From assembly GCA_022865705.1 (NCBI GenBank), contig JALHTG010000036.1, forward strand, positions 1-51,076: a stretch of DNA of 51,076 nucleotides. The letters are read 5' to 3'. The translations under genes were made by a program, and so were the position numbers. How positions within the stretch are numbered: position 1 is the first letter of the stretch; every line of letters starts with the position of its first letter. Below are positions 10,784 to 44,877 of this stretch, one piece after another. The stretch comes from Candidatus Bathyarchaeota archaeon (GTDB lineage Archaea; Thermoproteota; Bathyarchaeia; 40CM-2-53-6; JALHTG01). The notes under the pieces were generated by a model. That model worked only from the letters and a program-made list of their open reading frames with translations. It did not search any database and had not been told where the DNA came from.

Positions 10784-10937
10784 AGCCCGGTGGAGGAGAC
10801 TGGTGGCTCCGCCGAGTGTAGCGGACTGCAGGGATTCCTGCCCGCACAAGCATGACGTAGCCTTGAGTTGCGGGCTTTGGTTCCCTTCGAGGAGAAGAGA
10901 CCCGCTGACGGGAGTTCGAATCTCCCCCGGGCTACCA
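10784..10937 (+). tRNA. tRNA-Gln (UUG) with two introns
   Basis: Acceptor AGCCCGG (10784-10790) pairs with CCGGGCT (10927-10933). A1-U72 is typical of archaeal tRNA-Gln. The D arm is 10791-10809, anticodon stem GCGGG/CCCGC at 10870-10874/10901-10905, anticodon TTG at 10877-10879, T arm 10910-10926, and CCA is encoded. A 19-nt intron (10881-10899) sits at the canonical 37/38 site. It has a full BHB: exon CTTT with intron GAAG as central helix, TCC/GGA as intron helix, and 3-nt bulges on both sides. A second insert of about 59 nt (10811-10869) separates positions 26 and 27; its exact ends are uncertain. Removing both gives a 76-nt cloverleaf. A TATA-like TGCTTATACGT lies at 10736-10746. Confidence 0.85.
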
Positions 10938-24865: not shown

Positions 24866-25025
24866 GCCCTGGACCGCCCTAGTCATCGGAGTCTGATGAC
24901 GGCGAAGGTGGTGCAGCCCGGTCTAACATGTGCGGCTGTCGCCCGCACGACGCAGGCAGCTGCGTGAAGCGGGTTCGAATCCCGCCCAAGATGGCCATGA
25001 AAGTGGCCCTCGGCGAAGGGCGCCA
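24866..25025 (+). tRNA. tRNA-Asp (GUC) with three introns, two in the acceptor region
   Basis: D arm GTGC-AGCCCGGTCTA-ACAT, anticodon stem TGCGG/CCGCA around CTGTCGC (anticodon GTC at 24938-24940) and T arm GCGGG-TTCGAAT-CCCGC are all intact. The 5' acceptor GCCCTGG (24866-24872) is separated from T8 (24909) by a 36-nt insert folding as GTCATC/GATGAC. The 3' acceptor is CC (24986-24987), about 29 nt of insert (GGCCA/TGGCC stem), then AGGGC, G73 and CCA (25017-25025). A third insert of about 16 nt in the variable region is the hairpin ACGCAG-GCAG-CTGCGT (24950-24965). With the inserts removed, the acceptor GCCCTGG/CCAGGGC is perfect. A TATA-like GGCTTAAGATT lies about 30 bases upstream. Confidence 0.85.
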
Positions 25026-27609: not shown

Positions 27610-27703
27610 CGGGCCCGGAGGGATTTGAACCCTCGACCTCCGGCTTCGAAGGCCTATGCAGACCGTTGTCTTCAGCATCCTAGTCCAACTAGACCACGGG
27701 CCC
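27610..27703 (-). tRNA. tRNA-Arg (UCG) with one intron
   Basis: Acceptor GGGCCCG (5' end at 27703) pairs with CGGGCCC; the discriminator is G at 27610 and CCA is not encoded. The D arm GTCT-AGTTGGACTA-GGAT, anticodon loop CTTCGAA with TCG, variable AGGTC and T arm GAGGG-TTCAAAT-CCCTC are clear. The anticodon 3' strand GCCGG needs CTGGC on the 5' side. This forms if a 19-nt insert between positions 28 and 29 is removed (CT, insert, GGC). The mature tRNA would be 75 nt. A four-T run follows the gene on its own strand. Confidence 0.82.
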
Positions 27704-29865: not shown

Positions 29866-30012
29866 AAACGAATCAAAAGCGCGCGTGCCACGCCATCTTC
29901 TTCAAATCCATTATCTTCCAAGGAGCATGCACCCAAGGTGTATTTCTCCTGGGATTCTTCCCTATGCCAAAGATTTTAGGGTTCTTACACACCCTTCCTG
30001 TGATTGATCTTG

Positions 30013-30534
30013 ATGGAAACAACAGCAAAGCCTGAACCAGTCGAGGCCTTTCTTGCCAACAACAGGGTATCGGTTCCTCTCTCAGACATGCCGGCAGAAC
30101 TTCGAGAGAGGGGATTTGGAACCTTGAGGGGCAAGAGAATATACTTCTCAGTCTTGGAGGCGATCTATCTTGCTGACAAGAAGAGAACCAAGGTTCTGGA
30201 TTCAACGACTGAGATAGAAATCAAGTTCGCTGATATGGTTAGAAAGCTTTCCCAAGGCAAGCCCGAGGTTTGGATGAAGTATCTTGTGTACAGAGACTTG
30301 AGAGACAGGGGATACATTGTGCGGGAGGAAGAATCGGTTGACTTCGAGATCTATGGCAAAGGCGCGGTGAGAAGACTCGTGTCCATCGTCTATGAGGGAC
30401 GAGAGGCAAGCATTGAGAAGCTACAGCGTCTTCTAAAGGTGGCCGTTTCTGAGAAGAAGGAGCTTGTTCTGGCGGTCATAGATCGAAGAACCGACATCGT
30501 CTACTACACATTAGGTGAATTGTTGCTGAAATGA
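30013..30534 (+). CDS. tRNA-splicing endonuclease subunit, probably the structural (non-catalytic) one
   Basis: About 173 residues. The N-terminal half is the small alpha/beta domain. The C-terminal half has the EndA catalytic-fold landmarks: KYLVYRDLRDRGYIV, FEIYGKG with the family tyrosine (Tyr114), and KKELVLAVIDRRTDIVYY with a lysine at the usual place. The catalytic histidine expected just after the tyrosine loop (GxxHS-type) is missing; the sequence there is GAVRRLV. In heterotetrameric archaeal enzymes one subunit is structural and lacks catalytic residues. This fits the many non-canonical introns in the window. The ATG at 30013 follows an in-frame TTG at 30004. Confidence 0.75.
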   Translation: METTAKPEPVEAFLANNRVSVPLSDMPAELRERGFGTLRGKRIYFSVLEAIYLADKKRTKVLDSTTEIEIKFADMVRKLSQGKPEVWMKYLVYRDLRDRGYIVREEESVDFEIYGKGAVRRLVSIVYEGREASIEKLQRLLKVAVSEKKELVLAVIDRRTDIVYYTLGELLLK

Positions 30535-34998: not shown

Positions 34999-35106
34999 TG
35001 GCGGGCCCGCGGGGATTTGAACCCCGGACCTTTAGCTTTCGCCAAACCGACTTAGGAGGTTCAGTCTTTCCGGTCTACTGCTCCATCCGGTCTGAGCTAC
35101 GGGCCC
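34999..35106 (-). tRNA. tRNA-Arg (CCU) with two introns
   Basis: Acceptor GGGCCCG/CGGGCCC with G73 and encoded CCA (34999-35001), D arm GCTC-AGACCGGATG-GAGC, anticodon loop CTCCTA+A and T arm CGGGG-TTCAAAT-CCCCG are clear. Two 15-nt inserts restore the cloverleaf when removed: one at 30/31 and one at the canonical 37/38 site. That gives stem GTAGC/GCTAA (four pairs of five), variable AGGTC and a 78-nt mature length. Insert 30/31 is at the same position as one in tRNA-Lys. The central BHB helix at 37/38 has three of four pairs, so boundaries are less certain than for Lys and Leu. Confidence 0.8.
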
Positions 35107-40480: not shown

Positions 40481-41148
40481 CTAGAGCTTCGTTTGTCTGA
40501 TTCCTTGCTCTATTCGTGAAATAGTCTTCCAAGACTTTCTCACGAAGCCCGGAAAAGACCCGTGCTTTCTTACCCAATCCTCGAGAAAACGAATTGTTCG
40601 TTCGTCGGACGGGTACCCGCTTCCAAAATCTCCGTATTGATCCTCTATCTCGGCTATTCGTTGATCTCTTGTCACTTTAGCTATGATGGACGCGGCACTG
40701 ACCACCGGATACTTCTGATCTGCATGATGCTCAGAGATAATTCTAATTCTCTTCACGAGATGTTCTTGAATATCATCAGCGAACCTTTCAGGTCGAACGT
40801 CTGAAGAATCAACATAGGCAATAGCTGGATTCAACTTTCTGATGACTTTTGCCATGGCAGTTGCTTCCAAATAATTCAGTTTCCTAAGTTTCCTTCCCTT
40901 CAAGACATACTCATCGATCTCTTCCGGAGGTAACTCAACTATGGAAATGTCGTGGGCAATATTCCTGATGGCGATCGCCAGATTGGTTCTCTGTGTTGGA
41001 CTCAGAACCTTGGAATCTCTGACCCCTATCGATGAAAGTTCGCGGGTCGCCTCCTTCTTGATCGAAACCCCTGCGATGACGAGTGGACCTATGACGCAGC
41101 CCATTGGGGAGCCTATAGGTGAGTCAGCTCTCTCCCAGCGTCGTCCAC
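40481..41148 (-). CDS. rnhB: ribonuclease HII, interrupted by a 29-nt candidate intron
   Basis: Cleaves RNA in RNA-DNA hybrids. The uninterrupted frame starts at an ATG (41104) as MGCVIGPLVIAGVSI and includes AYVDSSDVRPERF, EHHADQKYPVVSAASIIAKV and the final GSGYPSDERT. It would lack the first catalytic acidic motif. That motif (GVDDAGR) lies just upstream in a different frame, separated by 29 bases with an in-frame TAG. Joining 41132 to 41102 gives DDAGRGCVIGPLV, exactly the family sequence. The in-frame start is a GTG at 41148; the upstream codons IIC also look family-like, but no ATG/GTG/TTG precedes them. It is the last gene of the RNA-information cluster. Confidence 0.85.
41103..41131 (-). 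other. candidate 29-nt BHB-type mRNA intron in RNase HII
   Basis: Reading the minus strand, exon TGGG pairs with CCCA near the intron 3' end as the 4-bp central helix. A 3-nt bulge AGA separates TGGG from the intron helix GAGC, which pairs with GCTC directly before CCCA. On the other side a 3-nt bulge ATG follows CCCA. Cutting between the second and third bulge bases (AG^A and AT^G), the archaeal splicing rule, removes exactly 29 nt and restores the frame and the DDAGRG motif. GACGC/GCGTC and GAGTGGAC/GTCCACTC can pair outside it. The insert contains an in-frame TAG, so it cannot be translated through. Confidence 0.7.
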
Positions 41149-41321
41149 TCCACAGATTATGCTGCTAAAGCCATTTACCTCCAGACAATGTCTTCGTCAC
41201 GTTCTCTTCTATCTTTCGATAGATGGTTTGGTCTGCAGATTAATCTCTTTTCTTGACTGTTGTGCCTGTGAACGACTTCATGGCGATTGCATCTTGCCTT
41301 TTCCCGGTTCATATTGATTCG

Positions 41322-43400: not shown

Positions 43401-44726
43401 TCAGCCCTTCTCAGGAACACTATGGATGATCGCTTCTCGAACCTGTTGAACGAACTCTCGAGTCTTGTTTCCTGGGAATCCTCCTGTCTGTGCCAAATTG
43501 CTCGTACCGCCCCCTCTGCATCCCCCCTTCTGCGCCACGGCCCTGACAATCTCACCGATGTTCAGTCCTAGCTTCGAAAAGTTGGCTCCGGCCGCGGCAA
43601 CAAGATGGGTTGCTTCGTTTGAGCTTCCAAGGATCACGATTGTGTCTTGATCGCTGTATGTGATCTTGAGAGCCATTCTCTTCAAGGTATCAGCGTCCAA
43701 ATCTTCTAAAGTTCTTGTCACAACTTTGAATGATCCAACACTTTCAGCATTTGACAGGTATTGTAATGCTTCTGATTCAGCAACGGACATTCTCAGTTTT
43801 CGCAGTTCATCCTTGATTCTTTCCCTTTCTTCGAGAAGCTGTTGCACCCTGGGGGCAACGCTCCCAATCTCACTGTCGAGCAAATCAGTCAGCTTCGAAG
43901 CGGTTTCAGAGGCCTTTGAGAACTCTGCGAAACCATGTTCTGCTGCTGCAACTTCCAGCCGTTCAATCCCCTTTTGGAGTCTTAGTCTTCCTAGGATCTT
44001 GATCGGAACGACTTCGATTGTGGATCTGACGTGTGTCCCACAACACAGACTGACATCTTGATCTCCTACTTCCACCAGACGGACATCCCCGGTTGGAGTG
44101 ACTTCGGTCAGCCCCAGCTCACTTCCAAATCTCTTGACAGCTTCATCTCTCGTGGTGAAGCTTGTCTTCACAGTGAGTTGTTCGAGGGCAATCAGGTTTG
44201 CAGTCCTCTCTATTTCATTGATTTGGTCTCGAGTCATTGATTCGTCACGGTTGAGATCGATGCGCACTCTGTCCGTACTTATTTGGAATCCCATGTAGCG
44301 AAGATCCTTCATTTTCAGAACTGATCTTGTGGCTGAGAAGACGATGTGTGCTGCCGTGTGATGTTTCATATTGCCATATCGTCTCGGCCAGTCGATTGCC
44401 CCCTTTGTCACAATTCCTTCACCTTGAAAGGGGCGACTTAGGATGTGTACCACCACTTGGCCAACCGCTCTAGTATCTGAGACTCCGAAGTTGGCTCCTT
44501 GTGCATCTACCACACCTTGATCCCCGGGTTGGCCGCCTCCCTCAGGAAAGAATACCGTTTTGTCAAGCACAACGTACGAGCGCTGTCCAAACGTGATGGA
44601 TTTGAGAACCTTTGCTTCGAACTCTCGGAGGTAGGGGTCATCGTAATAGAGGGCTCGAGTCTTCGGCAGATGCATGATCTGCTCTTCGACTTCTGGTGGT
44701 ATGGCAATGTTCTCAGAGCTTGACAA
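43401..44726 (-). CDS. alaX: AlaX-L type alanyl-tRNA editing protein with DHHA1 domain
   Basis: A free trans-editing factor that hydrolyses mischarged Ser- or Gly-tRNA(Ala). TVFFPEGGGQPGDQG begins the TGS/editing part, the zinc-type motifs are MKHHTAAHIVF and SLCCGTHV, a long coiled coil spans the middle, and the DHHA1 domain ends with AQKGGCRGGGTSNLAQTGG. The frame is open to 44807. A TATA-like AAAAAGGTTATG on this strand near 44765-44776 favours the TTG at 44726, with ATG 44675 (MHLPKTRALYYDD) as an equally good family start. Confidence 0.9.
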   Translation of the reverse strand: MSSSENIAIPPEVEEQIMHLPKTRALYYDDPYLREFEAKVLKSITFGQRSYVVLDKTVFFPEGGGQPGDQGVVDAQGANFGVSDTRAVGQVVVHILSRPFQGEGIVTKGAIDWPRRYGNMKHHTAAHIVFSATRSVLKMKDLRYMGFQISTDRVRIDLNRDESMTRDQINEIERTANLIALEQLTVKTSFTTRDEAVKRFGSELGLTEVTPTGDVRLVEVGDQDVSLCCGTHVRSTIEVVPIKILGRLRLQKGIERLEVAAAEHGFAEFSKASETASKLTDLLDSEIGSVAPRVQQLLEERERIKDELRKLRMSVAESEALQYLSNAESVGSFKVVTRTLEDLDADTLKRMALKITYSDQDTIVILGSSNEATHLVAAAGANFSKLGLNIGEIVRAVAQKGGCRGGGTSNLAQTGGFPGNKTREFVQQVREAIIHSVPEKG

Positions 44727-44877
44727 GTATTCTCCTCTTGGACAAATGAGAGACCTACTGGACGGCATAACCTTTTTGCCGAGAACTGGAGATGATGCAG
44801 GATTCACCAGAACGCCTGCGTACTATGCTTTATGAACGGGGAAACACTGCAATCATGGTTTTGCGGAGATACTGTGT

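Follow-up and report, generated by a model that had tools for sequence, protein, structure and literature searches.

In this archaeal genome, the gene encoding RNase HII is interrupted inside its active-site motif by 29 nt that, judged from sequence and with a probability of about 0.93, constitute an archaeal BHB intron in the pre-mRNA. The site of the insert, a fold kept by compensatory changes, the restored reading frame, a codon bias in the adjoining exon, signs of purifying selection and the presence of two EndA genes together with an RtcB gene all point in this direction, and we infer that the RNase HII mRNA is probably spliced. The window, i.e., the whole stretch of DNA analyzed, is the complete contig C10 (51,076 bases) of a 2.17 Mb genome in 117 contigs that is 91.57% complete and 6.34% contaminated. 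The gene is divided into three parts:

41132..41160, minus strand: RNase HII exon 1, encoding IICGVDDAG plus the AG of the Arg codon (from the sequence and a motif common with relatives; 5′ limit unsure)
41103..41131, minus strand: putative BHB intron of 29 nt, with each bulge predicted to be cut between its second and third bases (from the sequence, geometry, shuffles and covariation in relatives)
40481..41102, minus strand: RNase HII exon 2 including the stop codon (PF01351, 139.1 bits; TIGR00729)

Exon 1 reads IICGVDDAGR, with the AG of the last codon at 41133-41132, and the following 29 nt (41131-41103, minus strand) split the protein inside DDAGR/G, carry a TAG in the exon 1 frame and shift the frame. 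Exon 2 starts at 41102 with G/GGC TGC GTC, giving RGCVIGPL, and continues as GCVIGPLVIAG... down to the stop at 40481, an open frame of 206 codons compared with 201-213 codons in the other complete intron-bearing copies. Exon 2 alone matched TIGR00729 with 199.5 bits over positions 10-207 of 207, whereas joining it to exon 1 raised the score to 218.9 bits over positions 1-207. The earlier note had placed the split at DDAGR/GCVIGPL, with a stop and a frameshift in the 29 nt, and had proposed that cutting after the second base of each bulge yields DDAGRG in frame; we read the same split, and the cut rebuilds the motif within a full-length match. The GRG motif of RNase HII reads the 2′-OH at the RNA-DNA junction. 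The top PDB matches of the joined protein were chains named Ribonuclease HII, for example 2dff and 1io2, which we take to be archaeal enzymes, and the split gene was the sole RNase HII match in a profile search of the genome.

The insert and its flanks form a central helix of TGGG (41137-41134) with CCCA (41108-41105), bulges AGA and ATG, and an inner helix GAGC/GCTC that extends to five pairs, the fifth being U-G:

41134..41137, minus strand: central helix, exon strand TGGG (geometry; pair 1 occurs as five pair types)
41105..41108, minus strand: central helix, intron strand CCCA (geometry, covariation)
41126..41130, minus strand: inner (intronic) helix, 5′ strand GAGCT (geometry, covariation)
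41109..41113, minus strand: inner (intronic) helix, 3′ strand GGCTC (geometry, covariation)

The exonic outer helix consists of one pair here and in 11 further genes (1 bp in 12/15 genes measured, 2 bp in 3/15). According to the available excerpts of PMC7714728, a strict hBHBh′ motif has at least two Watson-Crick pairs in both outer helices, so that the RNase HII motif fails this definition and is a relaxed BHB. The full fit to BHB geometry claimed previously thus held for the central helix, the 3-nt bulges and the inner helix and did not hold for the exonic outer helix. When the 29 nt were mononucleotide-shuffled 1,000,000 times against the fixed exon, a central helix of four pairs appeared in 76,343 shuffles and such a helix with at least five inner pairs in 162. 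A 71-nt single-sequence fold was no stabler than shuffles (z 0.26); in its minimum, both helices and the 5′ bulge were preserved, but the 3′ bulge had two of its three bases paired. Scanning 122,822 bases of the genome (contig C10 and 25 loci) blindly for BHB motifs gave 87 candidates, the best 45 of them listed, and the RNase HII site ranked only 11th of the 87; the motif alone thus does not single the site out.

A total of 256 genomes of the class, which is most likely Bathyarchaeia, were searched with PF01351, 59 of them a second time, and 224 had a match; in the RNase HII tree, a named Candidatus Bathyarchaeota sequence groups with a same-class genome of family f14 (support 99/93). An insert was recognized by a match starting only at profile position 8-9 or, where its length was a multiple of three, by a longer match with internal stops, and intronless calls were based on a match that, judged by eye, began at position 1 or 2 and had no surplus length, or on direct reading of the sequence; three genomes in which the N-terminus was missing from the match (G121, G194, G223) were assigned to neither group. 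An insert of 19-31 nt at the same codon was read directly in 15 of the 224 genomes, namely this genome (G000, the only member of family f1 among those searched) and 14 others belonging to families f4 (G003, G012, G015, G019, G021, G023, G025), f5 (G004, G009, G013), f9 (G040), f13 (G080) and f16 (G049, G058). A covariance model, R1, built from these 15 genes was run on 398 genomes of the phylum and matched 248 of them at E 0.1 or better. Among the matches listed, those in G000, G003, G004, G040, G329 and G420 were insert-sized (69-81 nt), the rest having the 50 nt of intronless genes. G329 and G420 belong to family f51 of another class (2/44 genomes of G329's class matched R1 at 1e-8), and each carries a 30-nt insert with the central helix TGGT/GCCA and 9 or 10 inner pairs. 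This brings the intron-bearing genomes to 17, from seven families and two classes, all with the same site and codon phase. The central helix has all four pairs in 14 of the 15 genes and three of four in G012, and both f51 genes have four pairs including one G-U. The gene of G012 (L070), in which the central BHB helix has the mismatch, also reads DEAWR in place of DEAGR.

The fold is kept by compensatory change. In an alignment of 17 rows (15 distinct, the rows being related), 96.2% of 132 cells pair, falling to 42.2-60.0% when the partner is slid by 1-3 columns. Cells changed on both sides numbered 30, compared with 8.1 in 500 control shuffles, and the covariation score was 0.661 compared with 0.228; no shuffle reached either value. 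Two weaker measures gave seven pairs with a double change (4.9 in shuffles; 26/500 reach 7) and 17 further pair types (12.4 in shuffles; 5/500 reach 17), and a smaller alignment of 15 rows, 13 of them distinct, was 94.0% paired with a score of 0.554. The first central pair occurs as U-A (7), A-U (3), C-G (3), G-C (1) and G-U (1), and because it joins the third base of an Ala/Ser codon to an intron base, exon and intron coevolve. Run with no imposed structure, RNAalifold recovered the same nine pairs, with four others downstream. The exon codons GGG AG were found in 12/15 intron-bearing and only 3/63 intronless genes, all of them related and thus not independent. The earlier note had suggested a comparison with the RNase HII genes of relatives; this revealed inserts in 16 further genomes from two classes, and the common site, phase, fold and compensatory changes support the note's proposal of a BHB intron.

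The pairing between exon and intron also bears on the idea that the ribosome skips the 29 nt of an unspliced RNA by programmed bypass or frameshifting. Such an explanation has precedents, since cbf5 intron genes were formerly mistaken for cases of frameshifting (PMC2738675, in excerpt) and archaea are known to use -1 frameshifting (PMC8037382, in excerpt), but the insert varies in length from 19 to 31 nt and in sequence while its base pairs with the exon covary, and no repeated take-off and landing codon was seen by eye in the intron-bearing genes. We consider bypass highly improbable.

The insert might alternatively inactivate the gene, so that all copies are pseudogenes. A point in favor is exon 1, in which none of 12 codons read in frame is ATG, GTG or TTG. 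Over the 12 codons preceding the motif, or fewer where a stop lay closer, 8 of the 17 intron-bearing genes (this one and 7/16 relatives) had no canonical in-frame start, compared with 1 of 54 intronless genes, the eight being not independent (six from f4, one from f1 and one from f9; contig C10 41182-41158 and loci L020, L066, L070-L073 and L086); the DEAWR of G012 points the same way. Against inactivation, dN/dS was 0.24 (G019/G021), 0.39 (G019/G015), 0.13 (G009/G013), 0.13 (G004/G009), 0.31 (G329/G420) and 0.10 (G058/G049), i.e., 0.10-0.39 in the six of eight pairs tried for which it was computed (the remaining two showed saturation at synonymous sites), which indicates purifying selection on RNase HII. 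The covariation, the open exon 2 and the fact that this is the only RNase HII match in a largely complete genome likewise make a dead gene very unlikely.

An AUA start, an unrecognized 5′ exon or a local indel are possible reasons for the missing start codon. ATA stands at a plausible start position in this gene (41160-41158) and in G003, G015, G019 and G021, and in G009 and G013 it occupies the position where G004 has ATG; these two genes retain a TTG or a GTG. Upstream lies one further element, read in the sequence:

41177..41182, minus strand: Shine-Dalgarno-like GGAGGT upstream of exon 1

An ATG at 41174, just past GGAGGT, is out of frame and opens five codons followed by a TAA overlapping the ATA. 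Scanning 15 intron-bearing genes for a second, upstream BHB intron that would supply the start gave none that was common or convincing, and a 21-nt candidate (41165-41145) that would yield MALDDAGRG was rejected because it would remove the conserved IICGV. A promoter scan with a sigma-70 model, which is of little use for archaea, found nothing. An assembly or sequencing error, for which only the 117 contigs and the 6.34% contamination could be adduced, is scarcely credible for a structured 29-nt insert with same-site counterparts in 16 other genomes, and the earlier note had argued that this frame break cannot be a homopolymer error.

If the 29 nt are a BHB intron, the host should carry the machinery to remove it, and the genome indeed has both EndA and the ligase RtcB. 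Of its two EndA matches, one is on C59 and the other within the window:

30004..30534, plus strand: tRNA-splicing endonuclease gene, perhaps a non-catalytic subunit (PF01974, PF02778, NCBIfam endA-type models)

Judged by eye, the catalytic His region is retained in the C59 copy and lacking in the contig C10 copy, which suggests a possible alpha-beta EndA pair. An EndA heteromer would bind the 4-bp helix between the exon end TGGG and the intron end CCCA and cut each 3-nt bulge after its second base; RtcB would then ligate AG to G, restoring the Arg codon within GRG, and the excised 29 nt would leave, probably as a circle. Without splicing there would be no enzyme with the catalytic DDAGRG, so that under this mechanism RNase HII output would depend on the tRNA-splicing machinery. 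Two EndA matches were present in 38 of 44 genomes searched (this one included), intron-bearing and intronless alike, and EndA number hence does not explain the intron distribution.

As for the tRNA genes of this genome, 15 of 18 full-length matches above the cut-off were 91-137 nt long, with insertions resembling short introns, several at unusual positions and several with BHB candidates. tRNA matches lie at the following places:

27610-27703, minus strand: tRNA match
35002-35106, minus strand: tRNA match
L041-L055: further tRNA matches
24907-24987, plus strand: tRNA match below the cut-off
10859-10934, plus strand: tRNA match below the cut-off

In the tRNA at L048, removing a 19-nt candidate by hand left a 5-bp anticodon stem with the loop CTTCGAA. 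The tRNA model matched 20, 21, 27 and 28 times in the intron-bearing G003, G009, G040 and G329, compared with 24, 36, 33, 27 and 39 times in the intronless G006, G042, G047, G057 and G069, which hints at most weakly at a greater number of disrupted tRNA genes in lineages with the intron.

Intron-bearing RNase HII genes did not form one clade on a protein tree of 78 rows (15 of the 17 intron-bearing genes, the partial G015 and G049 being left out, and 63 intronless genes). The intron label changed 9 times on this tree, with at least 4 changes forced by well-supported branches and 25 of 74 inner branches open; shuffled labels needed 13.9 changes on average, and 1 of 500 shuffles was as low as 9. 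Frequent loss of an old intron and repeated gain at the same codon are both compatible with these data. A bolder version of the second history, which we regard as doubtful, holds that the intron is no old relic and was gained repeatedly at one codon, the Arg of GRG, in two archaeal classes, being site-specific and perhaps mobile or RNA-mediated; the enzyme would then be wholly dependent on tRNA splicing and, in several lineages with a weak non-canonical AUA start, RNase HII would be kept low and gated by splicing.

Several observations concern other loci. Besides the RNase HII site, R1 matched a second place in this genome (C19, 23.6 bits), which we took as a chance match in an open frame with a JAMM-like motif, and three weaker places (15.1-17.3 bits). 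In the other frame-poor regions of contig C10, a Pfam search of 10 reading frames gave no clearly split gene, a Pribosyltran match remaining below the cut-off. The frame at 43404-44822 (minus strand) matches AlaXM and, of archaeal alanyl-tRNA synthetase, no more than the C-terminal half (TIGR03683, 488-901 of 902); it possibly encodes a large editing protein. An in-frame intein-like domain (Intein_splicing, 76.1 bits) is a second kind of insertion in RNase HII and was seen in G005 (L077:871-2136), of the same order; G010 (C1:204785-206026) has the same split RNase HII match in one long frame. In G158 (C1:635421-636023), the RNase HII match contains one in-frame TGA and no extra length.

Archaeal BHB introns in mRNA are already known, chiefly from cbf5, and to judge from the sequences RNase HII would be the second conserved coding case. 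In an unrelated gene and in other lineages, such a case would show that the process is broader, while the 17 genes provide homologous substrates for probing the substrate range of EndA and a clean setting in which to follow how an intron is gained and lost at a single codon. It would also show that annotation overlooks such introns, the gene having the appearance of a truncated or frame-broken ORF. The enzyme could be scored wrongly as dead when RNase HII is surveyed in these archaea.

The RNase HII intron resembles archaeal tRNA introns at non-canonical positions, which are likewise short BHB introns and for which this genome has many candidates, and differs from them in its host, an mRNA instead of a tRNA. 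A circular-RNA report is said to describe an intron in archaeal XPD genes. By 2009, further protein-coding genes had been predicted to carry introns, in work on a rudivirus and on Sulfolobus genomes, and these predictions were unconfirmed (PMC2738675, in excerpt). We found no report of an RNase HII intron in the open literature searched, with subscription papers mostly outside the search, in line with the earlier note, which knew of none and held that archaeal mRNA introns are known mainly for Cbf5; the excerpts of PMC2738675 and PMC7714728 agree with the latter statement. The excerpted 2020 paper names cbf5 as the one reported example besides its own case (PMC7714728), the intron of HVO_1309 in Haloferax volcanii, which is likewise an mRNA BHB intron, is cut by EndA and was found as a 46-nt circle, but lies in the 5′ UTR, whereas the RNase HII intron lies in the coding sequence. 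The same paper (PMC7714728) reports circular-RNA sequencing to be biased against short circles. The closest parallel is the pre-mRNA intron of cbf5, a dyskerin homologue, in Crenarchaeota (Yokobori 2009, citing Watanabe 2002; PMC2738675, in excerpt), most cbf5 introns being unconventional BHB motifs said to be cut by a hetero-oligomeric EndA. Leaving intron length and place in cbf5 out of the comparison, both introns are BHB-like, reside in protein-coding mRNA and have been gained or lost between lineages, whereas the RNase HII intron is found in a different gene and in other genomes, measures 19-31 nt and sits inside the catalytic motif.
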